IMG/VR virus record: IMGVR_UViG_3300009103_001640
Coordinates: 1-59,071 of that record
Source of the DNA: a virus
Strand: one strand, 5' to 3'
Length of the DNA: 59,071 bases
Shown: one piece after another, positions 5,921 to 59,071 of the stretch
How the letters are laid out: each line of letters starts with the position of its first letter
Numbering within the stretch: position 1 is the first letter of the stretch
The notes under the pieces: model-generated
What the model saw: only the letters and a program-made list of their open reading frames with translations
What the model was told of the DNA's origin: nothing
The model's database searches: none
Translations under genes and position numbers: made by a program

Positions 5921-6590
5921 AAAAACATCATATTTTACTAAGGTACATGAACAAGCAATTATCGATTATAACAACAGCACGGATTTTGACGAAAGAGAAC
6001 GCCTCTATTCCACAATGATTGGACCGGTGTTCAGCGAGATGGTGGATAAGATCGTATTCACCTATAGATTTACAACGTTGCCGAATTGTGATTCACTGAG
6101 AGACGAGTGCAAGATTTGGTTAACAACAGTCATACAGAAGTATGATCCGAGTAAGGGCTCTAAAGCCTTTTCTTATTTTTCGGTTATAACAAAAAACTGG
6201 TTTATTGCCAAGGTTAAGAAAAACTCAAAGGCGCGCCGCACTGAGATCCCGATTGAGGATATTATGATCAGACCGATACTCGATGAGAAGCTGGTCGTTG
6301 AACACGGGTATTATGCTGATCGCGTGCAGAAAGAATTTTGGGAAGAATTGTGGAAGGAAATGGAGTCATGGGACACTGGAAACCTAAAACCCAACGAGCA
6401 AAAGGTTTTAGAAGCAATAAAGCTGTTGCTGGAACACCCTGATTCAATTGAAATTTTTAACAAGAAAGCTATTTACTTATACATTAGAGAGATAACCGGT
6501 CTTAACACGAAGCAGATTGTTAATAACCTCAACAAAATGAGGGCAAAATACAGGGCTTTCAAGAAGGACTGGAACGAGGGGAAACTATGA
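5904..6590 (+). CDS. 55: T4 gp55-like late-transcription sigma factor
   Basis: This 228-residue protein resembles the divergent sigma factor gp55 that lets host RNA polymerase use phage late promoters. The conserved core is seen around residues 60-110: a stretch rich in aromatic and basic residues, YDPSKGSKAFSYFSVITKNW, which matches the region-2-like helix pattern (K-a-f-s-Y-f-s..i.kn). The C-terminal part is helical with LNTKQIVNNLNKMR, like a helix-turn-helix remnant. T4 gp55 is 185 residues, so this one is longer. An AGAAGGAGAA ribosome binding site lies within the upstream gene. It directly precedes the long virion block it would be expected to activate. Confidence 0.7.
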   Translation: MAKKRRKTSYFTKVHEQAIIDYNNSTDFDERERLYSTMIGPVFSEMVDKIVFTYRFTTLPNCDSLRDECKIWLTTVIQKYDPSKGSKAFSYFSVITKNWFIAKVKKNSKARRTEIPIEDIMIRPILDEKLVVEHGYYADRVQKEFWEELWKEMESWDTGNLKPNEQKVLEAIKLLLEHPDSIEIFNKKAIYLYIREITGLNTKQIVNNLNKMRAKYRAFKKDWNEGKL

Positions 6591-30300: not shown

Positions 30301-33300
30301 GCTGGTAACCGGACTATTATTGAAGATTATGGCGGCATAGCGGATCGGATTGAAGGTGTTGATACTGTCCCAATCCAAGGCGGTCAAGAAGCAATCACGC
30401 AGACTCCCAACTGGGAATCAGGCTCTTATCATCATTTCCGAGGCAACTTGGTTATGCCCTTCAACGTCATCTCTTCAAGTGCGAACGACGTTAACGAAGG
30501 CTACACTGTACTGATTAACCAAGACTTGACTGTGTGGGGTGGCGGCACTGGCGTCGGACACTCAACTGATGCTGGAATATATGTTAACAAGAGGAGCCGA
30601 CCGTACGGCACCCATCACAATACTGCCGGCGATAGTGATGATCAATCGGGACACAGTAATCCTACGGAATTAGGTGGACTCGGACGAGGCGTCAACTTAG
30701 TTAACCTCCACACAGACACATACGGCGAAGATAAGGAAGTCCCAATGCAGGGACCGTTCACCGAGAAATATGTTGGCGGGCGTGCTTATCGACATGCCGA
30801 GGTTAATGATGGCACGGACACACTGGGTACCCGGCAGGAAGGTTGGCTGGTGCTTATTAATGCTGCTATTATGACCCCTAATGGCGTCTTGCATGCAAAC
30901 TCGGGCGGCGTTGGTCTGACCGGACCTGACTATCCATATCCTCATGGTCCTTATCCGTTCCAAGCCGATGATGGCGGTGGCGGCAACTCTGTTCACTGGC
31001 GCCCAATCGGTGGTCGCTACTATCGCGACGAGACAGCGAAGCGCCCAGTAAACATTAGAAATATTCAGATGGTGACAAGCTCTGCTGGGCATGAGAATGT
31101 TGGACTCCATCGCGTAGATGTAATCCAAGCCAACGGGGATGATATCTCTGAATGGACAAAACATTATCATGAGCAGATTGCAACCGGTTCTGCAAGAACA
31201 ATCATCGGAAACTACCGACACAATTACGAAGTTGTACACACGGTCGGTCGCTCAAATCAGAAGCCGTTCTTAAGAGACAACCAGTCTGTTCGCAATATTT
31301 TGCAGACCGGTTCGTTTGCAGAGGCGCCCAGCATACTCCAGTCTACCCATGGGCAGACCCTCGTAGTAAGCCGCGCTTATGGAGCCGGCACCGGTCAGAT
31401 GGTTCACGAAGATCTTCTCGGAAACGGCAACTTGCCTGCGTCAACGCACATTGAGACGATTTTGACGCAAAAGTTTCAGTCCACCGGTTCTAAAGATTTT
31501 AAGGATACAGCCGCCGCTGAAGACGAGCATATCGTACCCACCCTTACTCACTTGACTGGCGCTGTGCTGGTTGGATCCAGAGTTATTGTTTCTGATGTTT
31601 CTGGTGGTGTGGGCGGCGCGAATGTGGACGAAAACAACAACGCACTCCCAGCCCGTCGAGCAGCTTCTTATGATATTTTGCCCACTCCCGATATGCATCT
31701 CAACATGGATCACAGAATCCAAGACAGATCGTCGGGAAGCACCAACCTTAATACAATTTTTGCAAACAGATTCTCCGCTCCCGGCGGTCCACGAAACCAA
31801 TCGAAGGGCTTCCTTGACTTAGCGGCAGAAGAATACTCAGTATATAATGCATACCCATGGCGCAACCTTGAGGTTCTGGGCTCTGCAAGTGGCGAAGATC
31901 ACCAAACCCGCGCCAACATTCTTCCACAGTCCGTAGGCAACTATCAACGCTTAGGGCTTCGCTCTCTTCGCGCTCTTGCTTCTGGTAGACATGGCACCCT
32001 GAGCCCGTATGTTCAGGACACAGAGGCGACAGACCCAAATACTCACAACAACGGCGGGATCCGTTCAGCCGATTATGATACGGCAACTTCTTGGCACAAG
32101 GTCAACAGAAACCCGCAAACGCGAGCAACACCGACAACTGAGCACCGTGAGGTTCCACCCCGCGAAACACTCAGGTTCAGTGATGTGGCTTCAGTACCCG
32201 GCAAGAAGATCACTATCAAAGATCCATGGGGGCATGAGTATGTTTATACTCTTGATGCCGGCTCTACCGCTGATCTTGCGGGGGAGGCTCACGCTACACA
32301 CGATAATGATCCCGAATCTGCAACCTACGGACAGGCATCGGCTACAATTGGCTGGGCATCTTCCGGCAGTCAGACTGTGAAGTATCTAGCCATCGCCGAA
32401 TCTCTTCGCCGCGTAATGAGAACACAGATCAGTGGTGGCTTAGACGTTAACACCGGACACGAACTTATCGCCGTGACCAAGAGTCAGGTTCCATCCAGCA
32501 CAACCGTTGTCATGACGATTGATTGGGACCAAATTGTTCGCAGAAACATGGGTACGGGCGAATTTGTTTGGGGCGACAGGGTTAATGACGCACAGTATAC
32601 TGTAGAATCTCTCCTGATGATCACGCCGGTCCACGAATCCAGCGCAGACAACGTGAAAACGGCAACAAATTCTCGCTACCGGTCGTCGGTAAGCGGTGGT
32701 CTAGACGACGTATCTAGAATATCTTACGATAATGACTATGTGACGCGCCCCATCCCACAAGACGAAAACCAATACGCTTGGATTGCTGCGTCCACGGAGC
32801 CGTCCGCGTCAGGATATTCGCTTCCGAATCTTGGCTATGGTTACAACATGACCACCTTCAACCAGCCGACACCTTCAGGTTCTCGCCCGGTTGATCCGAT
32901 TCTATTCATCAGCGCTAGTCAGGTTGGAAGCGCATTAGGTAACGCAAACACGCATGGCACCTCTGCCGACCGAGGCTTCCGTTATTGGGGCATTGATAAG
33001 GGCAATAACGAAGATGGGGGGAACAGCACCCACGAACTCCAATTCATCCCCAATGTTCACGGTCTGAATCTGAATCTTGTCGATTCCCAGAATACATGGC
33101 TTACGGACGGTTCCGGGGCTGTTGCGTTGGGCTTTTATGCCACCGGCGGTATATTGCCAGCGGACGTATCTTTGCCCATTGGTCACACTTCAAACAATAG
33201 ACGCGGCGGCTTTGCGTATTCTTCGCATATTGCCAACTTGCACAGTTATGTTAACGAAGAGATACAGTACACGCATCGCCAACCCACCGACCTGCCTAAT

Positions 33301-36300
33301 GGCACCGTTTGGCACGGCTCTGGCAGAGTTCGGGTGGTCGACCCCGACTCTACCAACGCCGCCGGCGACATGATCGAGCTTGCAGCGACCCCAGCCCAAA
33401 ATATGGTTTATCTGCAAGGCGCCTTTGTCGATGACACCGGCGCAGCCCCCGAAGCCGCCGGTGGTCTTTCGCGCCAGAATGAGCCGCGTGGACATTATGC
33501 AAGCGCCGGCGAGCATCGAATGGTCCCCATGTACTGGTCGGGCTCAAACAGCTTCGCACACGAAAATGTAGACTATAGCATCACATCCGGGGAGGCGACC
33601 TCCACCGATCACCAGCATTACGCCATCAACCAGTCTGTTGCTGGTATCTTTAATGCCTTAATGTGGAAGCGCAACGGACCATACGGGTATCCAACTTGGA
33701 AACAGGTTCGCGGTGGTGAGCACCAGTTAGCACAGACAATGCGCAAGAACAACCGTTATGTGGTCGTAGACCCGCGATCTGATCGGGTTGTTCCACCAAG
33801 ACCGGGCTTTGTTGGTCGCGTCGTATCGCTCAGTACTGTAGAGACTCATGATGTTGTTGCAGCATTCAGGCGTTCGGGTCATATCAACACGGCAGAAAGA
33901 AAGCACAATCACTATTATGTACCGGCAGTTGAAACTAACGCAAAGACTATGCTAGCGGCGATCCAAAGGGGCACTTTTGACGATGGCTCATATGACCCGG
34001 ACAGAATATTATATGCGAATGTGACGCACGTTAATAATCTTAAAAACTTTCCAAACTCGAAACTTAATGAAGATGTAGGTCTTCGCAACTACAAATCCGA
34101 CAGAACAGCTTATAATGATCTTTACGAGATGTATACCGAAATGACCGATATAGACGGCAACGACGCTTATACGTTGGTTGATTTGACATATCGCGAAACC
34201 ATTTATCCAAAACCGAATAACGCCGGTCGAAGTGATATGCGACAGCGCTCCAACTTCGATGTTGGTTATTGGGGCGGTGACGCTGATGCGGAATATCATG
34301 GCAAAACCAACCACACAGACTTGCACGGATATCACGAACCAATTGGTAGAAGAACCCACTTTAATAAGCCCGATGTTCGTAACCCTCATGGTCAGTGGGA
34401 ATTTGGTCGTGGACCCAACGCGGCAGCGCTTACAGTTGGCTACCTCTGGGGCGGTGGCAACACATGGAACGCAATATCTGCCTTTAACACAAAACAGGGC
34501 TATAAGAGCACCCAAGGTATTTCTGAATACCACAAAGAGAAGAATCGAAATGTGATGTGGTATTCTGGAAGTATCTGGCCAATGGACGGAGCGAAGAACG
34601 TTAATCTGTTGCCAGTAAGTTACGCCGGCGCTATCGGACCAAGACAATATTTAGCCTCTTCTTCTCATCGCGCAACCAATCCCGGCTATGCCGAAGGGTT
34701 CTATTTCGACGGCTTGGCGGCTGACATCCTTACTCACGGCGCCCCCGGCATCCTGCAGAATCAGTTTACATGGTTCCATAATGGTATGTCCATCGGCTTT
34801 GAGCCAACAACTATTTCGTCATCGTGGAGTACCGCCGCTGGACAAAACACCCCCGGTGAACAACATGATTTTAACATTAACCTTCGCCACGCTGTTGCAT
34901 CTTCTAGTGTAATGGCTAACGCTGATTTCTACGCGCTTGCTCTCAAGGTTGGAAAGATTCGTGAAGACGCCTATGGCGCTCATATTTTGACAGAGCGTTA
35001 CGTGGCTCAACCCGCCGCTGGTATGGCATTTGGACCTTCATATTCCAGACCGCACATGCTTGTCGGTCGCAACAGTTATTGCTCTCCATCAGCAGGAAAG
35101 GCTGCTTACGCTCGCCGATTCAACTTCGCTAGCGAAACCGCAGAACTTACGGGCGCGTTGTCGTACGGCAAGGGTGACGGCGTGTCTCCGTTTTTGGAAG
35201 CCATCAAGAAGCACGGCACACAAGATGCAGCCCCAGAAAATAATGGCACTACTATCCCAATCACGTCTTCGCAAACTATGGCTGGAGGCGCACCTTCGAC
35301 TCTTTTGGGGCTGGGCGACCGCGTAGTTTCGCAACTAACCAGATCTATCGGTCACGAAGTTGAGGGGCTTTATGTTAGTGATTGGGAGTGGAAAGCACCA
35401 ATCCAGTCTGGAAAGTCGCCGTTTTATACTAACTATTCTAAATGGTTTGAAGAGCTTCGCGGAAAGTCTCAAGACAGACAGGTGATTCCAGAGTATCGCA
35501 TTAGCGACAGAATGCCATATTTCGTTCTTGACAAGCAAGGTCGATTCACTTCTAGGGATAGAGAATGGCTTTCGCTTCTTGGAAACCCAAGTTCTTCGGG
35601 AGGGCATCTCACTTCTTCTGCGGACGCTACAAAGGCTGGTGATAATATCACTGGATCCTTTATAAGTGATTATGCGGTAACGGCAACCCCTGCTTTGCTC
35701 GACGCTATTAAGGCAGAAAATGCCGGTATCACAGAGCCTTATGAATTAACACTAACCTGCGATGCGATTGTGAAATTCCTGCCGTATCAAGGCTTTTATC
35801 CTCAGTTGCGCACCGTTGACTTATGCAAGCAGTTTGTTGACAGCTATGATGATCATGTGACATTTGAATCTGATTTGGGCATTAACGACTTGGCGTCTTC
35901 GTATGTGCGGGTTGATTCTTCGGGCTCTACTAATCCCGGCTCAACCCAAGACCGCTACGGCTTTAGTCCTTTCGGTCCCGGTGGCGGTATTCTTGGTCTT
36001 GGACAAGCCGGACAAACTGCGGTAATGTCGATCTTGTTTGATGCCACCCAAGGCAAAGGCGCCGACAGTTCTAAAGAAGGAACAGCCGAGGCAGGCTATG
36101 CCATTCCAGATATGACATTTATGGTTATCGATGATCCTGCCGCTAAGCAAAGAATTGCGCTGGTTTTTGATCGCACGACCACCCTCACCGGCTGGGGCAA
36201 CTATGCTCACTCTACTAGTGATAGCACGTCACTCATCGGCGCCCCCGACAATGACGGAACCACAAAGAACGATGCAGTTGATAACACAGACGCAACCAAC

Positions 36301-39300
36301 GCGGACGGTGCAGACCCAAGGCAGAGCGGGAATGTACCATGGGGCGCAGGAAAAAGATACGGTTTCGCAGAGGCTGGCACCACCACCAACCCAATAAACA
36401 CGGGCTTTGAACCATTGGGTTCCAAGAAAGCGGACCTATTGACCGCAGGTACTAAAGTTGTTAGCACAACAACAAACGAGTGGGTAGACGCTCAGTACAC
36501 TCAAGGAGAATTCACACAAGTCTATAAAGTCAGAGGCGGAAATCACTACAAATCCACCGACGACAACAACTACAAGGGTTCTCTGGTTCTTTTGTATGGG
36601 GTGGTTCAGGCTATCAAGCACGCTAGACACAATGGGTTCATCAACGTCAGCCCCGGTATGCCCACTACCACAACCCGGCGCGCCGATGAGGACTACTCCC
36701 CTGCTGAGCCATGGAATCCCGGCACCTACGAGCGCGATTCACTTCGCGGTAAATGGTTCCAAGATAACAAATCTGAAATCGACGGGTCGACCGGGCTCTC
36801 CACTAAGAGCGGCGACAACTGGGCAACCGTTCTAGAATTAAAATATGACGCCGGCGATGGCGTGTCTGCAGACGGCTCAGATGGTACCGCCGGCAACGGT
36901 GTCAAGGTCCAGTTCTTCTCTTGGAACGATAACAACGAAAAGAACGCACATCCCACCCCTGCCAGCGCCCCCACAGGTCATTCAGCATGGAATGCCTCCA
37001 CTTCGACCTATGACTGGGGGAATCCTAGCACGTCTAAAGCCTTTAGGCACATCACCACCGCTGACTCCGATACGGGATATGGGCTTCAGGATTTCTCGTC
37101 CGCACGCACATTTGCATATGGAACCGCTGCAGTGACGACAGATGATGCCCTTATAAACGCTAGGTTCTATAGTGATGTGGCACTTTCGGGCTACTCATTC
37201 GACGTTGATGAGATCTTAGATCCCACCTCTCCTCGCGTCGGCGGTTCTGGCAAACTTACCGACGAGGGTTTTGAAACTCACGGTCGCAACCCTGCTGCGG
37301 CTAAGCGTCCATTCTACGGTCCTTTCATGGCACCCGGCATTCTCTTTAACACAATCAAGTCTGGTGTTGCGGTAGATTATCCCGTCTTACACAGAAAGTT
37401 GGCTACTACGGCATCTGTTGATCGCGACGGTGGCAGAAACTTCCAGATTGTGAACGAGTACTTTGATAACAGGCTCCCGTTTGAAACTTTGGTAGAGCCA
37501 GAAAGATATCTTACTAATGTACCGCTGGTTGATATGGAGCCTCACCCAAGTGCCTCTATTAACGCTACTGCTTCGTGGGACGGTCAAGGAGATCCGCTGT
37601 ACAAGATGATGATGCATAACTTCTTGGCTGAGATTCCTAACTTTTATTTGGCAGACCAATCCATGCAGTCGTTTGTTTCTTTGCCTGAGTCTGACGGAGG
37701 ATTTGGGCAGGTCGAGGCAGTTGTACATAACGGCGAAAAAGTTATTCCAGAATATAGAATGATGGTGAAGCTGTTCAAGTCCCAAGAGAATAATATACGC
37801 CCACTTACTCCAAGCGCCAGCAACCATTGGCAAAACCATCGTGGTCCAAAATTACCATTCAAGACTCATGCCCATGATGGCTCTCATAGTGGCACACTGG
37901 TTTACAATGGGCGATATGAGCCTTGCTATTATACAGATGTTATCGGCATGGAGAACCATGGACACAACAAAGACGGTGGTTACGGTGAAGGCTGGTACCC
38001 AGATATATACCAAAAGGGCGTTGGTATCAATTACAACAAAAAAGAGAGTCAATATCCTCGTCCGCAAAGTGACGCACCCGAGACGATTACAATGTACAGC
38101 CGCCCCTCCGCATTTGGACCTCCATGTGCCGGCGGCTATGCGATTGAGCCAGAATACGAATATATTTATACTGGCTCCGTGGCGCCATTTTCTCAATCTT
38201 ATGATCCCGATGGCAATCTCGGCGTCACAAATCTAAACGCCGCAGCGGGCGGCGAAGTCGCATACGCCGATGGTGGTGGGCTCCTGCGCAATAATGTCGT
38301 GGTTTCTTCGTCTCCAACAGTCTACGGTAGAGATTTCGGACAACAATTCGTTGAAGGTCACGTTGCTGGTTCTGGAACGATTGGGAAGGTCGCCGACAGA
38401 TCTATGACAACGTACGGTATGAAAGATGGCACGAATGGATACAATGCTCCGTTTACTCCTCCATACTACGATGGTCAAGCTTGGGCATTTTTAACCTTCA
38501 AGCCTTCACGCACAGGTAAGCACTACTTAGACGATATCTGGGAGAATACAACTATTAACTTCTTGAGATATGAGTTTGATTATATTTCTGGTGCATATGG
38601 TGACTGGGGAACATACGGACCACAAGGCTATGCAATGAACGTTAACGCAATGCAGATCGACGCAGCAGTTAATATCAAGGGCAAGACTTCAATCAAAGAA
38701 GTTACATATGATGCTATTACTGGTCTGCCACAAACAGTACAAGACTCGTTGCAGAGCACAGCACGAAACTCAGCTTGGGTTATTCAGACCAAGCTTGAAA
38801 CTCCCATCTTGCACTTTGGGTATGGACTTACAGATAACCAGACGCCTCTCGCGCTTTCTGGATCGGATTCCACTTCGACCATGGCAGAATCTAATGGTTA
38901 TCATCATGGCTATGCCGGCTTGTGTGAGCCCATCGGAATGTGGCATCAGTATGGCGAGATCCCATCAGCTTCGCAGGGCATTTACCTAGAAGTTGCGGAC
39001 ATCCCACCAGCATATATGCGCTTCGGCACAGAGATGACAATCGCCAATCCCAAGTGGATGCACATTACTGGCTCGCCAGATATGACGGTTGGTTCTACTG
39101 CGGGCGTTATGGGCTACTTCAGTGGAAGCACAGGAGAACTGGACTATAGACAGGGAGCCCCCGACTGGGATGGTTGGCGAGGCAGTAGTTCATTCGACGC
39201 TGCTTTGATTACAAGCGACGACTCCGAGGGTGGCGACCAGCCAGCCCTCGCAGCCGGCGGGTTTGCGGCAGGCGGTCAAGAAAGGTTTCTCATGGGACAG

Positions 39301-42111
39301 GGCTACAGGTTCAGTGGTTCTTTCTCTGGATCCGAGATGGCGTATACTGTCGGAAGAGGCACTATTCAAAACCCAGATCAGGTTAGAGATGGAACGCTAC
39401 AGCGCGGCGGTCGCCAACAATATATGCGTTGGCGCCTAATGTCAACCGGATCACTTGCTGGCATTATCGCTGATATGACACACTTGCAGATTGTTTCCGC
39501 AGATGACGGAACGATTTTGGACACGACTTGGGGTTGCCCCATTTCCAGAGGCGCCGCCGCTACACCCGGTATTTCCGGCAGCGGTCCCTGTTTTGAAAGA
39601 GGTTACTATATTGATCTTACTGTTACGGGTTCAAATATTATTAGCGGCTCCCTTCACGCCGGCGGCTCGGGCGACGAGGATTATCCCGCGCCCGCCAATC
39701 AGTGGACCAGCCTTAATAGAGGATATCCCGGTACTAGCTCAATGCGTCAACAATTGATGGGAATTGGTAAACTGGAAAGCAGCTTTACAATGCACAGGGA
39801 GCACGACGACGCCGACACTACGGTTAAAAATATAACAATCCCATTCCGCAACTATTACAACCAGTGGCTTTATGATGTGCCAAATAACCCCGTGGTTGAT
39901 AAGTGGAATTTGGCAGCATCTTATCATAGCCCACTTCACAAAAACAAGCGCGGCGTCATTCCAGATCCTCCCCATTTCTCAAATAATATAGGCACTGGCT
40001 CATTCGGTACTGCTCTCGGTTGTAGTCTCTACAGCCACCAATACGATAACACACACCCTTATCAGACGAAACACGTTGGCTATGTGAGGAAGACTTTCGG
40101 CAGCGAGGTCCAGCCACGCATGGGTCCACAATTCGGGAGCGCCAGAGCCGCCAACGGATATAACAGCGATGCTATTATATCAAATTCCGTTGGAGTCGGA
40201 CGCGCAGAAATCATCTGCGGATACACGGGCTCTGAAGGAAAGTACGGCTTTGATGCCGATGGTAAGCAAATCACAGGCTGGAACGCGTCCCAAGGAAACC
40301 CTCCACCCGAGAACTCACCTTATAAGTGGGCAAAGAGTATCGACGGACCTCTTTCGGGCAACGTCAGCACGCTCAGAGAGATTAAGGATCTAGATAACAA
40401 CTCCTACCCCGTCGCTGGTGCTGGCGAGTACGATGCCGCCCTTCACGGGCGACGATATAGGCAGAACGGCAGGTACCCGCGCTATCCAAACGGCAACATG
40501 ATGGCTAGCGGTCTGACCCATGGCGAAACATCTTATCAACGCTGGGCATCTGATTATTATTTCACTGGCGATGCGAGTACGCTGGATCCAGACGGCAAGC
40601 CTTGGTCCGACGACACAGCACAAACTTCCGGCTCGACCACGACAATCGGTGTTCCTGCCGGCGTTAACGGCTTTCATGGTCGCACAGGCGGCTCAGGCGA
40701 TTCAGCCTGCGGCTGGTTCGGCAGTGGCTTAGAAGACATTTATCCTCTTGGACAAACAGGGTACCCAAGCCCATATCAAAATCAGAACGGCATTGGAATT
40801 AAACTGCAGGATACGTCAGATTATACCCCCCGAAACGATGGCGAAATGGTGATGCTTGATCCGATCAAGATGTGGTACACGAACCCTGTACACATCGCCA
40901 ATGTTCGTATGCAAGATATGTTCGTCCGTGATAAGATGATGAGCAACAACCCGAAACGAGCCCACAAGGTACTTCGATACTTCCAAGATTTGGAAGCAGC
41001 ATTGTGCTCACCTAGAACTGTGCCCTCTGGCAAATTCCAACCTCGCGGTGGGGCTCAAGCCTTGACAAGATCTTTGGGCTCTTTGGTCGGATTTGAAAGC
41101 GGGGCAAAGAAGCTTGGTCAGTTGGCTGAAGTTAAGACAGTCAAGGAGGCGGTTGTGGTAATGCCCTACGTGATGAGGCGCGGCAGACGCAGGTTCATCG
41201 AACTTGACAAAGCACAAATTAATCGCTATTTTGGTCGAGGAGATTTTAAAGATACTGCTTATTGGGCTGCTATAGAAAAGTTTAAAAATCTGGAAGGATT
41301 GGCTGCATCTCCGATCAGCGGCTTGCAAGTAAACTTGGGCAACTCGATCTTACGACAAATTAGGATCATGGGCGACTATGTGATGCCTCCGCATCTGGAC
41401 TTCACCAGAACACCATCGGCAAAGCCGTACGCGATGTACATTTTTGAATATGAGCACCAATTTTCAGCACAAGATTTGTCGGATATGTGGCAGGGCTTGT
41501 TCCCAGACTCTGGCAAGACTATGAAGCAGGTGACTAAGCAGGTGACACACAAATTGAATATTGCAGAACTGCTCGGCGCTAGCGCGGAAGACGGCGAGGC
41601 TTTGCCGGATCAGATTAGATTCATGGTGTTCAAGGTCAAGCAACGAGCCGAGATCAACTATTTCAAACAAACTAAGAACCAGTTAGATGACCAGCGATTC
41701 CGGTTTAAATTCAAGGCAGGCGCCGCCGCGAAGACTGTTGATTACAGTTATAACTGGCCATATGATTTCTTCTCCCTTGTTGAGACGGCTAAGATTGATA
41801 TGTCGGTTATGTTGCGAAACAAGACACTGATCGAAGATATTGAACTTCAAGAACTAAATGAGAGGTTCAGTCTTGAACCAGTAGTAACATCTGTTTCGGA
41901 TCTGTTCCGCCGCCGTGTTGGGGTAATGAGCCGAATGTCCATTACAGCCGCGTCAATCCGAAGGGCTAGACGCTTGGCGACGAGAAGAATGGCAACGGCT
42001 GCTGTGGCAGCAACGTATGGACCCGTGACGGTTTCTACGGCACCTAGTCCTTCCCCGTCATTGGCTGGACCAACGCTGGTCGCTCCCGCGCCATTTGGAG
42101 GTAGTTCGTAA
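24355..42111 (+). CDS. Giant virion protein (5918 residues) with lectin-like domains
   Basis: One uninterrupted 17.8-kb frame. Residues 133-252 are three 40-residue tandem repeats and 256-500 three 83-residue repeats; one copy of each recurs at about 1849-1970. Residues about 550-790 look like a LamG/concanavalin-type sandwich (MTVEFWMLKNGF, IWKHYAITLKN, SLDEFRFWKLERDPRQIG). Residues about 950-1010 contain LYVFKTKGTEKSLRNMLRC, a pattern resembling tail protein I-type wedge proteins. A second lectin-like domain spans about 1016-1300 (WNFAVRIKP, CYVGALHQDF, GNLRYWMSDISDE). The long remainder is rich in Gly, Ser, Thr, Asn and aromatic residues, and the last 370 residues are charged and more helical. 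It is probably a baseplate-linked fibre or adhesin-like component. No catalytic motif was found. Confidence 0.65.
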   Translation: MSLKDLFESTKVTKSGSADETAYEVESEAYTDAFVQDKNEYVPPVDFSTASNFAKYGSAAKYYEDSIQRIYSNYPYDGSKYEVLDFHNSSSYLDRWMLEYKYPRTTGYVELGTTSGSGDWLPMVSGSADGDPATATFTFSDKPNEESWIELTDTDGTTVRFEIDNEADGAKKASATFTFSDKPNEESWIQLVDTDGTTIRFEIDNENDGLKKSTATFTFSDKPNEGSTITVVDSDGTSVTFELDNENDGVTGSNVALNGIYAAGGGATGTATDLVAKINAQSALDIVATNPSSGVVLLTQGTGGRDGNTTITLNDSAHWDTSTSVNVPTAFAGGAADVALSGISAAGGGATGTAADLVAKINAQSSLDITATNPSSGVVLLKQGTAGTPGHTDITLNDSSHWNTCTSANVPAAFAGSYTAVALSGISAAGGGAAGTAADLVAKVNAQSSLNIVATNPSSGVVLLTQGTTGGGGDTAITLNNSSHWNTCTSTNVPAKFTDGSGHGAEVGGWGMPDTSDNNILEYIEIKGGPHTGSADRTFETQDVKLKELFKFSNVYDSGSAREYSLEYNLATGMTVEFWMLKNGFYTSKTEREVVFDLWNNENSSSAGYGRLMIELSGTNVSGESVIRLTAQSGTNGFINEGIATITTDDVADGIWKHYAITLKNHPDNDGVNAKLYINGQVSGSAKLGSTGLGRVTGSMLANIGALVARPNGTNGYYDKTSIAKGGAKLSASLDEFRFWKLERDPRQIGRYWFTQVGGGSNTDTANVGLGVYYKFNEGIMNSGSRDRTILDYSGRISNGFWKGGVAECRNSGSAIASGSHNRSEFHDPIIYSEHPDVEYLETSMIVSGAHHDNLNNSLITSNFPDWIDTESRTTTLKHFTQIFASYFDKLYMQIEGLSKIKERYGSSYASGDVSASFKPVPFAKSLVTQFGIAVPEILQEAELIENFLNRNETMEYEEKLYNIRNQIYSNIYANLLYVFKTKGTEKSLRNMLRCFGVDDELVKINAYADNGDYVFKDNRRSTTNKTNYVTFNHSDRNDGTVYQAVSMSVDGVYSNPNARGYITGSSTFGKYNAQTIECEVFFPLKTDDILSKYWYQDRFVTASLFGTMGHAGADHDGVHDTRFPASSHAASGHHSGTVDLKVFALKDKLESTRARFMMSSSVLGTLTSDYYEDVYDDTRWNFAVRIKPTSHPWMDHAKVEADMGGGWTQGFDVEFYGVNVFTDVVQHEFLKTRTITETVGEAFLSAPKRCYVGALHQDFTGSTLFYSNAEVGNLRYWMSDISDEVVRTHAMDQSSYGVESPYKNAFIYQTSMSGNYVPQIATLALHWNFDNVTGSGGSPTTTQNTKDAQFIVQDVSSGSAEHGERYEPNFSDQVMMQHLGIGDFFLDNKTDIVNTRYVPTGKVVLPEYLHSNDMVEIRQRDTEFFTMETRPSKVYYSIEKSMYQTISEEMVKMFSTIKDFDNLIGEPVNRYRHEYKDLGKLRQLFFEKMPNDPDLDKYVDYYKWIDSAVSRFLEDLFPASAEHSDGMQTMVESHMLERSKYQTKYPTMEMAQDPPAASFDTINTLLYDYQRGSAPLPGDIHSISATEEGTTGSAEMMDQDQNCLWWSKRAEREHPILASTAMSASSPGMNLSGTLTSRIAVFSASTSAYNRKLHTPYHYSVVQNHLIHGGINYDDNKKLDYVYPATVPFSPRAVDYGKFGGYPLGYLIAKDMDRDASPYTSMRQCDLPLSSSYGAKVKREGYKVIDGWEGFKSAAGSQGWVAPIAASGSITVTDAVTLHSQAQKPSFTITATDGTVIKLSQNNQQTTSTDTNNPTYQKHTTCSTAATNMATALNANSKLTATAASTAATATFTFTDKPNEGSTITLVGTAANITFEIDNENDGVTGSNVALNGIAAAGGGATGTAADLVAKINAHNGLSITATNPSAGVVLLTQNAGGSHLNTAITLNDASHWNTCTSVNVPSAFTGGKSVVTITQVTPGIAGNRTIIEDYGGIADRIEGVDTVPIQGGQEAITQTPNWESGSYHHFRGNLVMPFNVISSSANDVNEGYTVLINQDLTVWGGGTGVGHSTDAGIYVNKRSRPYGTHHNTAGDSDDQSGHSNPTELGGLGRGVNLVNLHTDTYGEDKEVPMQGPFTEKYVGGRAYRHAEVNDGTDTLGTRQEGWLVLINAAIMTPNGVLHANSGGVGLTGPDYPYPHGPYPFQADDGGGGNSVHWRPIGGRYYRDETAKRPVNIRNIQMVTSSAGHENVGLHRVDVIQANGDDISEWTKHYHEQIATGSARTIIGNYRHNYEVVHTVGRSNQKPFLRDNQSVRNILQTGSFAEAPSILQSTHGQTLVVSRAYGAGTGQMVHEDLLGNGNLPASTHIETILTQKFQSTGSKDFKDTAAAEDEHIVPTLTHLTGAVLVGSRVIVSDVSGGVGGANVDENNNALPARRAASYDILPTPDMHLNMDHRIQDRSSGSTNLNTIFANRFSAPGGPRNQSKGFLDLAAEEYSVYNAYPWRNLEVLGSASGEDHQTRANILPQSVGNYQRLGLRSLRALASGRHGTLSPYVQDTEATDPNTHNNGGIRSADYDTATSWHKVNRNPQTRATPTTEHREVPPRETLRFSDVASVPGKKITIKDPWGHEYVYTLDAGSTADLAGEAHATHDNDPESATYGQASATIGWASSGSQTVKYLAIAESLRRVMRTQISGGLDVNTGHELIAVTKSQVPSSTTVVMTIDWDQIVRRNMGTGEFVWGDRVNDAQYTVESLLMITPVHESSADNVKTATNSRYRSSVSGGLDDVSRISYDNDYVTRPIPQDENQYAWIAASTEPSASGYSLPNLGYGYNMTTFNQPTPSGSRPVDPILFISASQVGSALGNANTHGTSADRGFRYWGIDKGNNEDGGNSTHELQFIPNVHGLNLNLVDSQNTWLTDGSGAVALGFYATGGILPADVSLPIGHTSNNRRGGFAYSSHIANLHSYVNEEIQYTHRQPTDLPNGTVWHGSGRVRVVDPDSTNAAGDMIELAATPAQNMVYLQGAFVDDTGAAPEAAGGLSRQNEPRGHYASAGEHRMVPMYWSGSNSFAHENVDYSITSGEATSTDHQHYAINQSVAGIFNALMWKRNGPYGYPTWKQVRGGEHQLAQTMRKNNRYVVVDPRSDRVVPPRPGFVGRVVSLSTVETHDVVAAFRRSGHINTAERKHNHYYVPAVETNAKTMLAAIQRGTFDDGSYDPDRILYANVTHVNNLKNFPNSKLNEDVGLRNYKSDRTAYNDLYEMYTEMTDIDGNDAYTLVDLTYRETIYPKPNNAGRSDMRQRSNFDVGYWGGDADAEYHGKTNHTDLHGYHEPIGRRTHFNKPDVRNPHGQWEFGRGPNAAALTVGYLWGGGNTWNAISAFNTKQGYKSTQGISEYHKEKNRNVMWYSGSIWPMDGAKNVNLLPVSYAGAIGPRQYLASSSHRATNPGYAEGFYFDGLAADILTHGAPGILQNQFTWFHNGMSIGFEPTTISSSWSTAAGQNTPGEQHDFNINLRHAVASSSVMANADFYALALKVGKIREDAYGAHILTERYVAQPAAGMAFGPSYSRPHMLVGRNSYCSPSAGKAAYARRFNFASETAELTGALSYGKGDGVSPFLEAIKKHGTQDAAPENNGTTIPITSSQTMAGGAPSTLLGLGDRVVSQLTRSIGHEVEGLYVSDWEWKAPIQSGKSPFYTNYSKWFEELRGKSQDRQVIPEYRISDRMPYFVLDKQGRFTSRDREWLSLLGNPSSSGGHLTSSADATKAGDNITGSFISDYAVTATPALLDAIKAENAGITEPYELTLTCDAIVKFLPYQGFYPQLRTVDLCKQFVDSYDDHVTFESDLGINDLASSYVRVDSSGSTNPGSTQDRYGFSPFGPGGGILGLGQAGQTAVMSILFDATQGKGADSSKEGTAEAGYAIPDMTFMVIDDPAAKQRIALVFDRTTTLTGWGNYAHSTSDSTSLIGAPDNDGTTKNDAVDNTDATNADGADPRQSGNVPWGAGKRYGFAEAGTTTNPINTGFEPLGSKKADLLTAGTKVVSTTTNEWVDAQYTQGEFTQVYKVRGGNHYKSTDDNNYKGSLVLLYGVVQAIKHARHNGFINVSPGMPTTTTRRADEDYSPAEPWNPGTYERDSLRGKWFQDNKSEIDGSTGLSTKSGDNWATVLELKYDAGDGVSADGSDGTAGNGVKVQFFSWNDNNEKNAHPTPASAPTGHSAWNASTSTYDWGNPSTSKAFRHITTADSDTGYGLQDFSSARTFAYGTAAVTTDDALINARFYSDVALSGYSFDVDEILDPTSPRVGGSGKLTDEGFETHGRNPAAAKRPFYGPFMAPGILFNTIKSGVAVDYPVLHRKLATTASVDRDGGRNFQIVNEYFDNRLPFETLVEPERYLTNVPLVDMEPHPSASINATASWDGQGDPLYKMMMHNFLAEIPNFYLADQSMQSFVSLPESDGGFGQVEAVVHNGEKVIPEYRMMVKLFKSQENNIRPLTPSASNHWQNHRGPKLPFKTHAHDGSHSGTLVYNGRYEPCYYTDVIGMENHGHNKDGGYGEGWYPDIYQKGVGINYNKKESQYPRPQSDAPETITMYSRPSAFGPPCAGGYAIEPEYEYIYTGSVAPFSQSYDPDGNLGVTNLNAAAGGEVAYADGGGLLRNNVVVSSSPTVYGRDFGQQFVEGHVAGSGTIGKVADRSMTTYGMKDGTNGYNAPFTPPYYDGQAWAFLTFKPSRTGKHYLDDIWENTTINFLRYEFDYISGAYGDWGTYGPQGYAMNVNAMQIDAAVNIKGKTSIKEVTYDAITGLPQTVQDSLQSTARNSAWVIQTKLETPILHFGYGLTDNQTPLALSGSDSTSTMAESNGYHHGYAGLCEPIGMWHQYGEIPSASQGIYLEVADIPPAYMRFGTEMTIANPKWMHITGSPDMTVGSTAGVMGYFSGSTGELDYRQGAPDWDGWRGSSSFDAALITSDDSEGGDQPALAAGGFAAGGQERFLMGQGYRFSGSFSGSEMAYTVGRGTIQNPDQVRDGTLQRGGRQQYMRWRLMSTGSLAGIIADMTHLQIVSADDGTILDTTWGCPISRGAAATPGISGSGPCFERGYYIDLTVTGSNIISGSLHAGGSGDEDYPAPANQWTSLNRGYPGTSSMRQQLMGIGKLESSFTMHREHDDADTTVKNITIPFRNYYNQWLYDVPNNPVVDKWNLAASYHSPLHKNKRGVIPDPPHFSNNIGTGSFGTALGCSLYSHQYDNTHPYQTKHVGYVRKTFGSEVQPRMGPQFGSARAANGYNSDAIISNSVGVGRAEIICGYTGSEGKYGFDADGKQITGWNASQGNPPPENSPYKWAKSIDGPLSGNVSTLREIKDLDNNSYPVAGAGEYDAALHGRRYRQNGRYPRYPNGNMMASGLTHGETSYQRWASDYYFTGDASTLDPDGKPWSDDTAQTSGSTTTIGVPAGVNGFHGRTGGSGDSACGWFGSGLEDIYPLGQTGYPSPYQNQNGIGIKLQDTSDYTPRNDGEMVMLDPIKMWYTNPVHIANVRMQDMFVRDKMMSNNPKRAHKVLRYFQDLEAALCSPRTVPSGKFQPRGGAQALTRSLGSLVGFESGAKKLGQLAEVKTVKEAVVVMPYVMRRGRRRFIELDKAQINRYFGRGDFKDTAYWAAIEKFKNLEGLAASPISGLQVNLGNSILRQIRIMGDYVMPPHLDFTRTPSAKPYAMYIFEYEHQFSAQDLSDMWQGLFPDSGKTMKQVTKQVTHKLNIAELLGASAEDGEALPDQIRFMVFKVKQRAEINYFKQTKNQLDDQRFRFKFKAGAAAKTVDYSYNWPYDFFSLVETAKIDMSVMLRNKTLIEDIELQELNERFSLEPVVTSVSDLFRRRVGVMSRMSITAASIRRARRLATRRMATAAVAATYGPVTVSTAPSPSPSLAGPTLVAPAPFGGSS
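24751..25110 (+). repeat. Three tandem 120-base coding repeats (unit A)
   Basis: Three copies begin at 24751, 24871 and 24991 with an exact 120-base spacing. Each encodes about 40 residues with the shared core FTFSDKPNE, then D-x-DGT and FE(I/L)DNE. Copies 1 and 2 are closest; copy 3 diverges where it joins unit B. Differences lie mainly at third codon positions, so selection is on the protein. Confidence 0.9.
25120..25867 (+). repeat. Three tandem 249-base coding repeats (unit B)
   Basis: Copies begin at 25120, 25369 and 25618, spacing 249 bases (83 residues). Each has AAGGGA(T/A)GTA, DLVAK(I/V)NAQS, ATNPSSGVVLL and a late HWNTCTS- or HWDTSTS-type segment followed by NVP. The pattern resembles a small beta/alpha domain repeated in tandem, as found in stalks of fibres. 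Confidence 0.9.
29899..30270 (+). repeat. Distant copy of the A+B repeat module inside the same gene
   Basis: About 4.9 kb downstream of the tandem arrays, one A unit (core FTFTDKPNEGSTI) and one B unit (GIAAAGGGATGTAADLVAKI, then ATNPSAGVVLLTQ) recur in the same order and nearly the same spacing (126 rather than 129 bases). DNA differs at many third positions, so the copy is old or has been under protein-level selection. Confidence 0.85.
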
Positions 42112-54290: not shown

Positions 54291-54827
54291 ATGAGCAATA
54301 CATTGGGGCTGGATATCAGCACCACAAGGATAGGTATCGCCGTGCTTGACGCTAGCGACAACCTTATACACAGTGATTTGATTAAGTTCAAATCTGAACT
54401 TCCGCTTGAGGATCGTGCTGCGATCTTTGAGTCAATCATGCGCAAGATAAACAGCAAGTACACTCCGTTCTATGTGTTCGTCGAGAAGCCCGCGATCAAC
54501 TTTCGCTCTGGCTCGACTGCGCACGTTATGGCGAAACTGCAGCGATTCAACGGAATGTGCAGCTACGCCTGCCGCAAGGTATTCAAAGAGAATCCAGAGT
54601 TAATCGATGTACGCACTGCCCGCCGCACATTGGGCATTAAGATTCCACGCGGCAAAGGCATGAAGAGTCAGGCTAAGAGAGTGGTTATTGAATATGTTGA
54701 AAAGCAGTATGAAAGCTTCCAATACAACCTGACCTACAAGGGAAATCCCCAGCCGGGAACTGATGATCGAGCAGATGCTGTGGTCATCGCTCTTGCAGGT
54801 ATTAAGATTTTTGAAGAAAACGCTTGA
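54291..54827 (+). CDS. RuvC-fold Holliday-junction resolvase
   Basis: The 178-residue protein has an RNase H / RuvC fold with the acidic active site in order: D8 in LGLDISTTRIG, E65 in FVEKPAIN, and D158-D159 with D162 in GTDDRADAVVIAL. These residues bind two metal ions for cutting four-way DNA junctions. Size matches bacterial RuvC (about 170 residues) and pox/phage relatives. In T4 the packaging-linked junction cutting is done by an unrelated enzyme, endonuclease VII; here a RuvC-type enzyme may take that role. Its stop codon overlaps the -35 box of the primase promoter. Confidence 0.8.
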   Translation: MSNTLGLDISTTRIGIAVLDASDNLIHSDLIKFKSELPLEDRAAIFESIMRKINSKYTPFYVFVEKPAINFRSGSTAHVMAKLQRFNGMCSYACRKVFKENPELIDVRTARRTLGIKIPRGKGMKSQAKRVVIEYVEKQYESFQYNLTYKGNPQPGTDDRADAVVIALAGIKIFEENA

Positions 54828-54860: not shown

Positions 54861-55805
54861 ATGCATAAAGAAAAGCTAAAGATAGTTGCGTCCTGTTTGG
54901 GCGAGTACCGCATTGCGGGCGACGAGACACTGTTCTATTGTCCGTTCTGCAAACACCACAAGCACAAGCTGTCGGTGAACGTTCGTGCGAATGTTTACAA
55001 GTGCTGGATTTGTGACGCACGCGGTAAGAATGTTCGCCGACTTGTTCGCAAGTTTGGCAACTACGCGCAAGTTACAGAATGGGATCGTATCACCGGTCGT
55101 CATGACGTTACCGATTTCGATTCCATATTCGGCGATGCGCTGCCCGAGGCAGAGGCTGTGCAGCGAGTTTCCTTACCAGACGAGTTTCGCACACTGGCAC
55201 GCAAAAACCTTTCGCCAGCTACCAGACCAGTCCTAAACTATCTACAGGCTCGGGGCATCGGAAAAGACGAGATTTTGAAATGGAAGATAGGCTACTGTCC
55301 ATCGGGCGAATACGCAGGTCGTATTCTGATTCCGAGTTTTGATATGGATGGTTATGTCAATTACTTTATTGCGCGTGCGTACGATGGCGCGTGGATGAGG
55401 TACAAGAACCCACCAGCTAGCCGGGACATTGTGTTCAATGAGTTATACTTGGACTGGGATGAAGATATTATTATAGTCGAGGGTGTCTTCGACGCAATCG
55501 TGGCTGGCAATGCTGTTCCGATTTTGGGTTCGACTCTGAATCACAACACCACATTGTTCGCACGCTTGGTCAAAGAAAGCCCTCGCGTATATATTGCGCT
55601 TGATTCAGACGCATCATACAAGGAGCGCAAGATTATCAAAAGCCTGCTACAGTATGATATGGAAGTATATAAGATTGACACCAGTGGCATTGAAGACATT
55701 GGTGCGATAAGTAAAGAAGAGTTCGCCGCAAGGAAGTCAGCGGCACAGCGAATAGAAGACAGTTCGTATATCTTAAGCGATGCGCTGTCTTCTGTCCGCG
55801 TATAA
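54861..55805 (+). CDS. DNA primase (zinc ribbon plus Toprim)
   Basis: This 314-residue enzyme has an N-terminal zinc ribbon with C27-xx-C30 and C48-xx-C51 (YCPFC, KCWIC) and a Toprim domain with E207-G208 in IIIVEGVFDA and the D248-x-D250 pair in IALDSDAS. This is the minimal DnaG / T4 gp61-type arrangement, making RNA primers for lagging-strand synthesis. T4 gp61 is 342 residues. No Shine-Dalgarno sequence lies before the ATG, in agreement with the promoter ending at the start codon. No helicase gene is in the window; a partner helicase is presumably encoded elsewhere. Confidence 0.85.
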   Translation: MHKEKLKIVASCLGEYRIAGDETLFYCPFCKHHKHKLSVNVRANVYKCWICDARGKNVRRLVRKFGNYAQVTEWDRITGRHDVTDFDSIFGDALPEAEAVQRVSLPDEFRTLARKNLSPATRPVLNYLQARGIGKDEILKWKIGYCPSGEYAGRILIPSFDMDGYVNYFIARAYDGAWMRYKNPPASRDIVFNELYLDWDEDIIIVEGVFDAIVAGNAVPILGSTLNHNTTLFARLVKESPRVYIALDSDASYKERKIIKSLLQYDMEVYKIDTSGIEDIGAISKEEFAARKSAAQRIEDSSYILSDALSSVRV

Positions 55806-55814
55806 GGAGGAGAA

Positions 55815-55997
55815 TTGCCAGCAAGTTTGTTGTTTGCTTTGCTATGCAGCTATGGTGTAGCGTTTTTGATAGGGTTATTTATTGGCACAACCGCACCACA
55901 ACGACGCAAAGCAAGAAATATTAAAGATTACAGAAGGTTTTATGAACAGGAGCACCGTGAGGCTCAAAACGATTCGTGGAACCACCCCACATTTTAG
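55815..55997 (+). CDS. Small membrane protein with a TTG start
   Basis: A 60-residue protein with a near-ideal ribosome binding site (AAGGAGG) placed before a TTG codon; no ATG is available in the hydrophobic part. Residues about 4-25 form one membrane segment, followed by a basic, tyrosine-containing tail. It lies between primase and the SbcD-SbcC gene with short gaps on both sides. I do not recognise the family. The ribosome binding site and lack of overlap with neighbours argue that it is real. Confidence 0.55.
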   Translation: MPASLLFALLCSYGVAFLIGLFIGTTAPQRRKARNIKDYRRFYEQEHREAQNDSWNHPTF

Positions 55998-56006
55998 AGG
56001 ACAAAA

Positions 56007-59000
56007 ATGAAGTTTGCTCATATTGCAGATACGCACATTAAAAATTTAAAGTACCATTACGAATACAAGGAAGTGTTCAAGCAGCTATATCAAGCGCTGC
56101 GTGACGAAGAAGTAGATTGTATCGTACACTGTGGAGATATTGCCCACACCAAGACACAAATCTCTCCAGAGTTTGTAGAGCTTTGTTCTGACTTTTTTCG
56201 GAACCTTGAGAGCATCGCACCCACGTATATCATCTTGGGGAACCATGACGGTAACCTGCGCAACAGCAGCCGTCAGGACGCCATTACACCCATCGTAGAG
56301 GCTCTGGACCTGCCTGACCTGCATCTGCTCAAGGACGCGGGAGAAACGGCTTTAAACGCCGATTATACGCTGAACGTGCTATCTGTGTTTGACGAGGAGA
56401 ACTGGACAGATCCGACTGATGCGGACAAGATCAACATCGCTCTGTACCATGGCTCGATTTCTGGCGTCAAGACTGACGCTGGCTGGGTCATGGAGCACGG
56501 AGAGCATGATATCAAAATCTTCGACAAGTTTGACTTTGCGTTTTTGGGAGACATTCACAAGACGGATCAGGTGCTCGACGATGAGGGTCGCATCCGTTAT
56601 CCCGGTTCCACTATCCAACAGAACCATGGCGAGACGAACGACAAGGGGCTTCTCATTTGGGACATTAAGGATCGCGACACATGGGACGTGAAGCACGTTG
56701 CTTTCAAGAATCCCAAGCCCTTCGTGACGATTGAGTTGACTCCGAAGGGTCGCATGCCAAAGAAGATTGAGGTACCGAAGGGCGCTCGTCTGCGCTTGGT
56801 GTCAAACAATAACCTTCCGCTTAACCGGATGAAGAAGGCTCTTGACGTTGCCAAGCATCGCTTCAAGCCAGAGGCGATTACGTTTCTTAATCGCGCAGCA
56901 GGCGAGCGAGGGAACGTTGACGCCCTGACATACAATCTAGTTAAGGAAGACTTGCGAGATCCTGTGGTACAGGAAGAGTTGATCGAAGAATATCTCAAAG
57001 AGTATGAGGTAGACGATGACCTGATGAAAGAGGTTCATTCTATCAACGGACACTACAATCGTATTGTCGAGAAGGAAGAGGAGATCACCCGTAACGTAAA
57101 CTGGAAGCTGAACTCATTTAAGTTTGACAACCTGTTTAACTTCGGTGAAGGTAACTCGATTGACTTTGAGAAGCTAAACGGTATTGTTGGCATCTTCGGG
57201 AAGAACTACAGCGGAAAGAGCAGTATTATTGATGGCTTGCTGTTTACTATGTTCAACTCCACGTCCAAGAACGAACGCAAGAACCTGAATGTGATTAACC
57301 AGCACAAACAGGACTGTGACGCAACGGTTGAATTCTCGATTGGTGAAAAGGTGTATACAGTTAATCGCCAGTGCGAGAAATATATTAAACGCCTGAAGGG
57401 TGAAGAGACTGTCGAGGCAAAGACCGATCTTGAATTTACGTCTGAGTGTCTGATTAGTGGCGACACAATGAGCGAGAATGGGCTGACTCGTAACGAGACA
57501 GATAAGAACATTCGCAAGGTGGTTGGTACGCTTGACGACTTCTTATTGTCGTCTATGTCGTCGCAGCATGGAGCGCTCCAATTTATTAACGAGGGAACAA
57601 CCCGACGCAAGGAAATCTTCGCAAAATTTCTCGACCTAGAAGTTTTTGAGAAAAAGTTTAGGTTGGCGAAGGAAGACAGCGCGGACATGAAGGGTGCCCT
57701 CAAGAGACTTGAGGATCGCGATTACGATGCGGAGTTGACTGAGTTACAGTCCAGCGAAGCGCATGTGCTTGAAAGCTTGGGTATATGTCAGCAGGCTCTC
57801 ACCATTGAGAAGACCCACCGCGACAACTTTAAGGACGTGTTGGATGACATTGTTAACAAGATTGAAAGCGTGCCATCCGGCATCGTTGATATCGTTGGTA
57901 TCAAGAAGAAGCTGTCAGATAAGCGAATCCGCGCTAGCGCCCTGCGCGCAGAGAACGTGAGCCTGTCGAAAGATTGCGCACACAAAGAGTCGATTCGCAT
58001 TCGCATGGATAGTTTCATCAAAGAGTTTGATGTAGATACATACCGCATGAGACAGCAACAAATCGAAGAACTTATCGCTTCTGCTGCTGACTCGCAAAAG
58101 AACCTAGACGCAGAACAGTCCGAAGCCCGCCGACAGGAAAAGAAGATTAGAATGTTGGCAGATCATGAGTACGATCCAGACTGCAAATACTGTTCTGAAA
58201 ATAAGTTTGTAAAGGACGCACATGTGGCTAAGGCATCGCTACCCAAGACACAGGAAAAGATCGCGAAGATCGAAGAGTCTATAGCCGCGCTTCAAACTCA
58301 GCTTGATGGTTTAGAGCCGGCAAGAGTCAAGAGGTACCTGACGCGATACGAGGATCTGATGCGCAAATCTGCTGAGTTGTCGGGAGAGATTTCCGACTGC
58401 CGCTTGCAGGTGCAAAAGAACAAGACCTCTATCATACGCATCGAAAAGGAGATCTCCGATCTTGAAGCTAACGAGCGAGTGTATGAGGAGAATCGTGATG
58501 CTATCGAGAATCTGGAAGCGCTGCTGAAGGACCGTGATCGGGCTGAGAGAAAGCTGGAAAAGTCGAACATTAAGCTTTCAGTACTTAACAACGAACTCAT
58601 GGATTTACACAAAGAGCACGGTTCAGTCGAGAGCAAGATCGAAAATCTGGAAGGCGCCCAACAAGAGTTGGCTGATTTGCAGAAGCGGTACGCGGCATAC
58701 GATCTGTTCATGCGCTGCATGCATTCTAACGGTATTGCTTACGACATTATCAAGAAGAAGCTACCAGTCATCAATGAAGAGATCGCGAAGGTCTTGGCGA
58801 ATATCGTAGACTTTGAGATCTTCTTTGAGGACGATGGCAAGAAGATGAATGTCTTTATCAAGCATCCTCGTCACGAAGCCCGACCTTTGGAAATGGGCTC
58901 TGGCGCAGAGAAAACTTTGGCAGCTATGGCAATCCGATTGTCGCTGCTGAGCGTTTCATCTTTGCCAAAGGGCGATCTTTTCATCCTCGATGAACCGGGT

Positions 59001-59071
59001 ACTGCTCTTGATGAGGAGAATATGGAAGGGTTTATTCGCATCTTGGAACTAATTAAGACGTACTTTAAAAC
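56007..59071 (+). CDS. SbcD-SbcC fusion nuclease/ATPase (gp47-gp46 fused), 3' end outside window
   Basis: A single open frame of 1021 codons runs from ATG 56007 to the window end. Residues 1 to about 300 are an SbcD/Mre11/gp47 nuclease: D8-T-H10, G43-D44, G78-N79-H80-D81, H148 and G181-D182-I-H184, all five metal-binding motifs in order. From about residue 370 the chain continues as SbcC/Rad50/gp46: Walker A GKNYSGKSS at 398-406, long coiled coils around a zinc hook C726-KY-C729, the degenerate signature MGSGAEKTL, and Walker B with D995-E996 in FILDEP. I checked the frame through the junction (56700-57200) and saw no stop. The complex processes DNA ends for recombination-dependent replication. 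Normally it is two proteins; only a short C-terminal piece should be missing. Confidence 0.9.
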   Translation, partial: MKFAHIADTHIKNLKYHYEYKEVFKQLYQALRDEEVDCIVHCGDIAHTKTQISPEFVELCSDFFRNLESIAPTYIILGNHDGNLRNSSRQDAITPIVEALDLPDLHLLKDAGETALNADYTLNVLSVFDEENWTDPTDADKINIALYHGSISGVKTDAGWVMEHGEHDIKIFDKFDFAFLGDIHKTDQVLDDEGRIRYPGSTIQQNHGETNDKGLLIWDIKDRDTWDVKHVAFKNPKPFVTIELTPKGRMPKKIEVPKGARLRLVSNNNLPLNRMKKALDVAKHRFKPEAITFLNRAAGERGNVDALTYNLVKEDLRDPVVQEELIEEYLKEYEVDDDLMKEVHSINGHYNRIVEKEEEITRNVNWKLNSFKFDNLFNFGEGNSIDFEKLNGIVGIFGKNYSGKSSIIDGLLFTMFNSTSKNERKNLNVINQHKQDCDATVEFSIGEKVYTVNRQCEKYIKRLKGEETVEAKTDLEFTSECLISGDTMSENGLTRNETDKNIRKVVGTLDDFLLSSMSSQHGALQFINEGTTRRKEIFAKFLDLEVFEKKFRLAKEDSADMKGALKRLEDRDYDAELTELQSSEAHVLESLGICQQALTIEKTHRDNFKDVLDDIVNKIESVPSGIVDIVGIKKKLSDKRIRASALRAENVSLSKDCAHKESIRIRMDSFIKEFDVDTYRMRQQQIEELIASAADSQKNLDAEQSEARRQEKKIRMLADHEYDPDCKYCSENKFVKDAHVAKASLPKTQEKIAKIEESIAALQTQLDGLEPARVKRYLTRYEDLMRKSAELSGEISDCRLQVQKNKTSIIRIEKEISDLEANERVYEENRDAIENLEALLKDRDRAERKLEKSNIKLSVLNNELMDLHKEHGSVESKIENLEGAQQELADLQKRYAAYDLFMRCMHSNGIAYDIIKKKLPVINEEIAKVLANIVDFEIFFEDDGKKMNVFIKHPRHEARPLEMGSGAEKTLAAMAIRLSLLSVSSLPKGDLFILDEPGTALDEENMEGFIRILELIKTYFK

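Follow-up and report, generated by a model that had tools for sequence, protein, structure and literature searches.

An SbcD-SbcC (Mre11-Rad50) Fusion Family of Marine Phages and the Possible Exchange of Its Zinc Hooks

Introduction

The SbcD (Mre11) nuclease and the SbcC (Rad50) ATPase are encoded by separate genes in T4 and in typical bacteria, as an earlier note on the DNA described here correctly stated. The window, a 59-kb linear virus record (IMG/VR record IMGVR_UViG_3300009103_001640; 59,071 nucleotides, the whole stretch that was analysed), ends in a gene that appears to encode both. Is this a genuine fusion, is it peculiar to one contig, and what might such an enzyme do in its phage? 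Novelty, which the earlier note implied, is not part of the answer: fusions of Mre11 and Rad50 have been on record since 2011 (PMC3175470), and the family to which the window gene belongs has hundreds of members in IMG/VR.

The Fusion Gene and Its Domains

The fusion frame (56007-59069, + strand) opens with an ATG, is preceded by AGAGGA, and stays open to the contig end, where the gene is truncated. A complete ortholog, L003, is 1053 aa long and 91% identical to the window fusion; by comparison with it, ~32 codons and the stop lie beyond the contig end. The earlier reading of SbcD and SbcC in one frame is borne out by Pfam, PHROGs and motif searches, but the gene is not complete in the window. 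Its features are as follows.

56007-59069, + strand: SbcD-SbcC (Mre11-Rad50) fusion gene, 1021 codons, 3' end missing
56007-56711, + strand: metallophosphoesterase (nuclease) domain, aa 1-235 (Pfam, motifs; boundaries from the L003 model)
56028-56036, 56133-56147, 56238-56249, 56448-56453 and 56547-56558, + strand: nuclease motifs I, II, III, IV (H148) and V (GDIH), respectively (motif search)
56712-56894, + strand: capping-like region, aa 236-296 (L003 model; named by analogy with Mre11, PMC3175470)
56961-57077, + strand: two helices, aa 319-357, at the position of Mre11's Rad50-binding helix-loop-helix (L003 model)
57078-57098, + strand: short linker, aa 358-364, up to the first strand of the ATPase (L003 model)
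57099-57641, + strand: Rad50/SbcC ATPase N-lobe, aa 365-545, with Walker A at 57198-57224 (Pfam, motifs, L003 model)
57642-58160, + strand: coiled coil, outgoing arm, aa 546-718 (L003 model)
58182-58193, + strand: zinc hook CKYC, aa 726-729 (motif search)
58203-58721, + strand: coiled coil, returning arm, aa 733-905 (L003 model)
58722-59069, + strand: ATPase C-lobe, aa 906-1021, incomplete, with the SGAEK signature at 58899-58913, Walker B at 58980-58994 and D-loop at 59007-59021 (Pfam, motifs)

Pfam assigns the N-terminal part to Metallophos (aa 1-185, E 1.6e-11) and the C-terminal part to SMC_N (aa 383-1014, 6.5e-13) and AAA_23 (aa 374-589, 2e-9), while PHROGs places an SbcD-like family (phrog_100, aa 1-385, E 3e-36) ahead of an SbcC-like one (phrog_77, aa 292-1014, E 5.7e-49). 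Sequence matches in the PDB are to Mre11, SbcD and Rad50. An AlphaFold model made on L003 reached a pLDDT of 80.9 with a low pTM of 0.45, so that the relative placement of its domains is uncertain; the Mre11 and Rad50 folds within it match solved Mre11-Rad50 complexes. The terms capping and helix-loop-helix are taken from T. maritima Mre11 as described previously (PMC3175470). The stretch that follows the capping-like region (aa 296-309) is weakly predicted in the model.

All five metallophosphoesterase motifs named in the earlier note are present: D8-x-H10, GDIAH (43-47), GNHD (78-81), H148, and GDIH (181-184), the last of which departs from the usual GHxH form of motif V. Walker A (398-406), a CxxC hook between coiled coils (CKYC), SGAEK (965-969), Walker B (FILDEP, 992-997) and LDEEN (1001-1005) were located in the same frame as the nuclease; the note had read the Walker motifs and the hook there. 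The Rad50 H-loop region lies past the contig end in the window and is present in L003. Residues invariant in 66 fusions include D8, H10, D44, H47, N79, H80, H148, D182, H184, K404, D995, and E996. Motif V is likewise invariant as GDIH throughout the family; GHxH is found in T4, P-SSM2 and cellular SbcD, and GDxH in a T5-like D12 and a 735-kb huge-phage fusion. The substitution could alter nuclease activity. Taken as a whole, 56007-59069 is a genuine SbcD-SbcC fusion in one uninterrupted frame.

Phage Context and Proposed Function

The genes that lie upstream of the fusion in the window are listed below.

54291-54827, + strand: RuvC-like Holliday junction resolvase, a conserved upstream neighbour (phrog_159, E 1.2e-11)
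54861-55805, + strand: primase, a conserved upstream neighbour (phrog_47, E 1.1e-37)
55815-55997, + strand: 60-aa ORF with a hydrophobic N-terminus, found in L003 too (ORF list)

A primase occurs upstream of the fusion in 108 of 111 loci and a RuvC-like gene in 89 of 104, while a terminase lies downstream in 41 of 46. In L003, terminase-like and portal-like proteins, identified by sequence inspection, are encoded 3' of the fusion. Elsewhere in the window are genes for baseplate wedge proteins, a late sigma factor and sugar enzymes, a complement that fits a T4-like phage with a contractile tail. Eighteen long phage records carrying the fusion hold no second full SbcC/SbcD pair, although a few weak partial matches occur. 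Fifteen of these records encode a RecA/UvsX-family recombinase; the other three, which may be incomplete, gave no RecA match.

The window has two further genes of note. A 5918-aa open frame (24355-42111, + strand), among the largest of phage proteins, lies amid long structural-looking genes. A 1391-aa protein (6888-11063, + strand) has an endolysin/amidase-like region at ~922-1085 and a metallopeptidase-like region at ~1222-1355, and is perhaps a tail-borne cell-wall enzyme. Contigs catalogued under bacterial or archaeal MAGs also carry fusion genes (L163-L170; for example, Nitrosopelagicus, Flavobacteriales and WOR-3). Most of these contigs are short, and contamination with phage sequence probably accounts for them. 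The WOR-3 copy (L165) sits in a 2.8-Mb contig and runs into masked bases.

A T4-like marine tailed phage probably makes its Mre11-Rad50 (SbcD-SbcC) enzyme for DNA-end processing as a single chain, which would assemble as an M2R2-type dimer and resect ends for recombination-dependent replication with the phage RecA/UvsX. By analogy with the Mre11-Rad50 and T4 literature, two chains would dimerize via their ATP-bound heads, nuclease domains and zinc hook to form such a complex, in which head closure driven by ATP would regulate the nuclease. In the simplest arrangement, the helix-loop-helix of the nuclease would bind the coiled-coil base of its own chain. Binding in cis is favoured because only ~7 residues separate the helix-loop-helix from the first ATPase strand (L003 model, pTM 0.45), and in this respect the earlier expectation that fusion would constrain the geometry of the complex is reasonable. 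Its companion claim, that fusion fixes a 1:1 stoichiometry, does not stand: the canonical Mre11-Rad50 complex is already M2R2 (2:2), and fusion leaves that ratio as it was. The enzyme would resect double-strand ends to 3' single strands, on which RecA/UvsX could load for recombination-dependent replication, with the RuvC-like enzyme resolving the products before packaging.

By annotation, T4 gp46/gp47 are required in recombination as well as in the degradation of host DNA, and a role like theirs, in DNA-end resection for recombination-dependent replication, is the most likely one by analogy. The main task might instead be host DNA degradation, which the T4 annotation includes, or the cutting of hairpin ends. 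E. coli SbcCD cuts hairpins, and the change in motif V could alter activity. Such a main role is nonetheless unlikely, as the primase, resolvase and terminase neighbours and the co-occurrence of RecA/UvsX fit recombination-dependent replication; the two kinds of role are not mutually exclusive.

A Single Frame across the Family

Viral contigs were scanned twice: the first scan yielded 112 relatives, 80 of them retained, and the second, with the nuclease half as sole query, gave at least 600 stretches. The earlier note had proposed a search for proteins of about 1000-1050 residues with both domains, and such proteins prove to be common: 144 of the 169 related loci checked encode the entire fusion in a single frame (988-1084 aa). 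Of the rest, 21 are truncated by contig or locus ends, and four are other cases. Because some contigs occur in duplicate, independent genes are somewhat fewer than loci (131 rows on the tree, 129 distinct). In the linker region (aa 296-370), the window and L003 differ by 37 synonymous and two non-synonymous codons, a pattern of purifying selection. The fusion is an established form in its phage group and not a peculiarity of the window contig.

One frame might still yield two products, if SbcC were also translated from an internal start or if the chain were cleaved after synthesis. The weakly predicted stretch at aa 296-309 may be exposed, and the window has TTG codons at aa 316 and 325 with AGGA upstream. 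A comparison of 17 members, however, revealed no internal start that has a ribosome-binding-like site and a position shared past the closest ortholog. On these grounds, independent initiation of SbcC within the frame was rejected, and two products are, overall, very improbable. That an assembly or sequencing artefact joined two genes, as might be feared of a single metagenomic contig whose gene reaches the contig end, has next to no likelihood and is ruled out by the same single frame in the 144 loci and in the Microcystis phage Mel-JY01 (a deposited complete genome), with the purifying selection on linker codons also against it.

Two Zinc-Hook Types

The hook is described as a conserved CxxC (PMC5093744). 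Within the fusion family, two general types of hook are observed. Of 131 proteins, 61 have a CxxC hook (consensus LHDHEYDPDCxYCSxNxFVKxA) and 58 have a wider PCG-x5-C form (consensus LLxEVPCGxxFPxCKFIKDAH), while nine show other wide spacings and three lack the usual pair. Each type is a conserved block of ~20 residues, the two types differ in length, and the coils that bear them are nearly equal in length. The wide form would be a hook that either binds zinc without CxxC or bonds in some other way. Searches of cultured phages and the PDB gave no convincing match to the wide hook outside the fusion family, and no description of phage hook variants or of swapping between two designs was found in the open-licence literature.

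The two types do not follow the phylogeny of the heads. When the coil and hook columns are left out of the tree, its well-supported branches require at least 11-14 changes of hook type, and a second tree, made with another program from 50 chosen members that include discordant pairs on purpose, forces 12. Switching is seen among related loci such as L024, L097, L005 and L012. For example, L024 and L097 have heads that are 96% identical, hooks of different type, and outer coils that are mostly 54-76% identical, and the window and L005 likewise carry different hooks on heads that are 91% identical.

Since the hook types are conserved ~20-residue blocks of different length, recombination accounts for the switches better than repeated independent mutation, which is unlikely; the pattern suggests repeated hook exchange among fusion proteins. 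On balance, the Rad50 dimerization clasp seems to be an exchangeable cassette: two hook designs on equally long coils would have been traded by recombination, roughly a dozen times or more, between enzymes that are closely related in other respects. The breakpoints are not sharp, as coils diverge fast in general (for instance, between the window and L004, which share a hook type). A search for the DNA donor of a swapped hook turned up nothing near-identical; the best matches to hooks of the same type reach ~70-90% over short stretches. A possible reason for the swap is that it changes which Rad50 partners pair, or that it allows escape from something that recognizes the hook.

Significance

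The family adds many intact phage examples to the class described in 2011, and its single-chain Mre11-Rad50 enzymes of ~1050 aa are convenient for structural work. Hook exchange, if true, would matter more than the fusion itself, since with a family that swaps two hooks on the same heads one could test directly whether partner specificity is set by the hook.

Comparison with Known Fusions and Split Relatives

The 2011 paper of Yoshida, Claverie and Ogata reports Mimivirus R555 to be a fusion of Mre11 and Rad50, along with twelve further fusions in bacteria, eukaryotes and Bacillus phage 0305phi8-36, including plasmid sbcDC fusions of Clostridium kluyveri and Deferribacter (PMC3175470). From GOS scaffolds with phage primases, these authors argued that many fusions come from aquatic phages, and the published fusions were not monophyletic (PMC3175470). 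The window fusion is one more case of this class, and the fusion itself is not new. It shares with the published examples the domain order in one chain, and a region for capping and helix-loop-helix appears to be kept. As with the GOS homologs (PMC3175470), the window family is marine and adjoins phage primases, and just as published viral carriers have the fused form only (PMC3175470), so do its 18 long records. The linker is expected to have 9-12 extra residues from the T. maritima distance (PMC3175470); the ~7 in the L003 model, which has a low pTM, are somewhat short.

R555 is compared here by description. It has Asp in place of the motif V His together with a His in motif II (PMC3175470), as does the window family with its GDIAH and GDIH, in which H47 and D182 are invariant in 66 members. 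At 1351 aa, R555 is longer than the ~1053 aa of the window family, which has a shorter coil. In a structure search, the highest places go to giant-virus fusions (Tupanvirus, Harvfovirus, Yasminevirus and others), followed by proteins of comparable length from Tenacibaculum and Listeria phages. No close plasmid relatives of the window fusion were found, the matches there being weak ones to ordinary SbcC or SbcD.

Full-length fusions that are 27-32% identical over the matched parts occur in Mel-JY01 (WWT39521.1, annotated merely as "AAA domain containing protein") and in the huge phages LR756508 and LR756501. A primase lies directly upstream in Mel-JY01 and LR756508. The LR756501 fusion (L179, 3989-7594) is a jumbo-phage SbcD-SbcC fusion of 1202 aa. 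In LR756508, a 484-kb huge phage (L083), the fusion gene is interrupted between GDIH and SGSLIQQN (5665-6582) by an insert with a 305-aa, homing endonuclease-like ORF (cysteine pairs, a PDFFIEY-VKGW stretch); the insert has no credible match among Rfam intron families. A further SbcD-SbcC-sized fusion, with GNHD, GHFH and a CPYC hook, is the 1099-aa ORF305 of Xanthomonas phage XacN1 (L180, 3896-7195), annotated merely as "recombination endonuclease subunit".

In a tree of fused and split proteins, the window family groups with Mel-JY01 and the two huge-phage fusions, and that of XacN1 falls with the split proteins of T4 and SPO1 type; branches are long, and the order of distant rows is a hint. 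The XacN1 protein is probably, if not surely, the product of a separate fusion event, and the tree thus hints at two or more such events, in agreement with the published conclusion (PMC3175470). T4 gp47/gp46, P-SSM2, T5-like D12/D13 and SPO1-like systems have the same two enzymes and core motifs, and probably do the same job. These relatives are at most ~24-33% identical to the window fusion over the ATPase part, and what they encode in two genes is encoded in the window in one frame.
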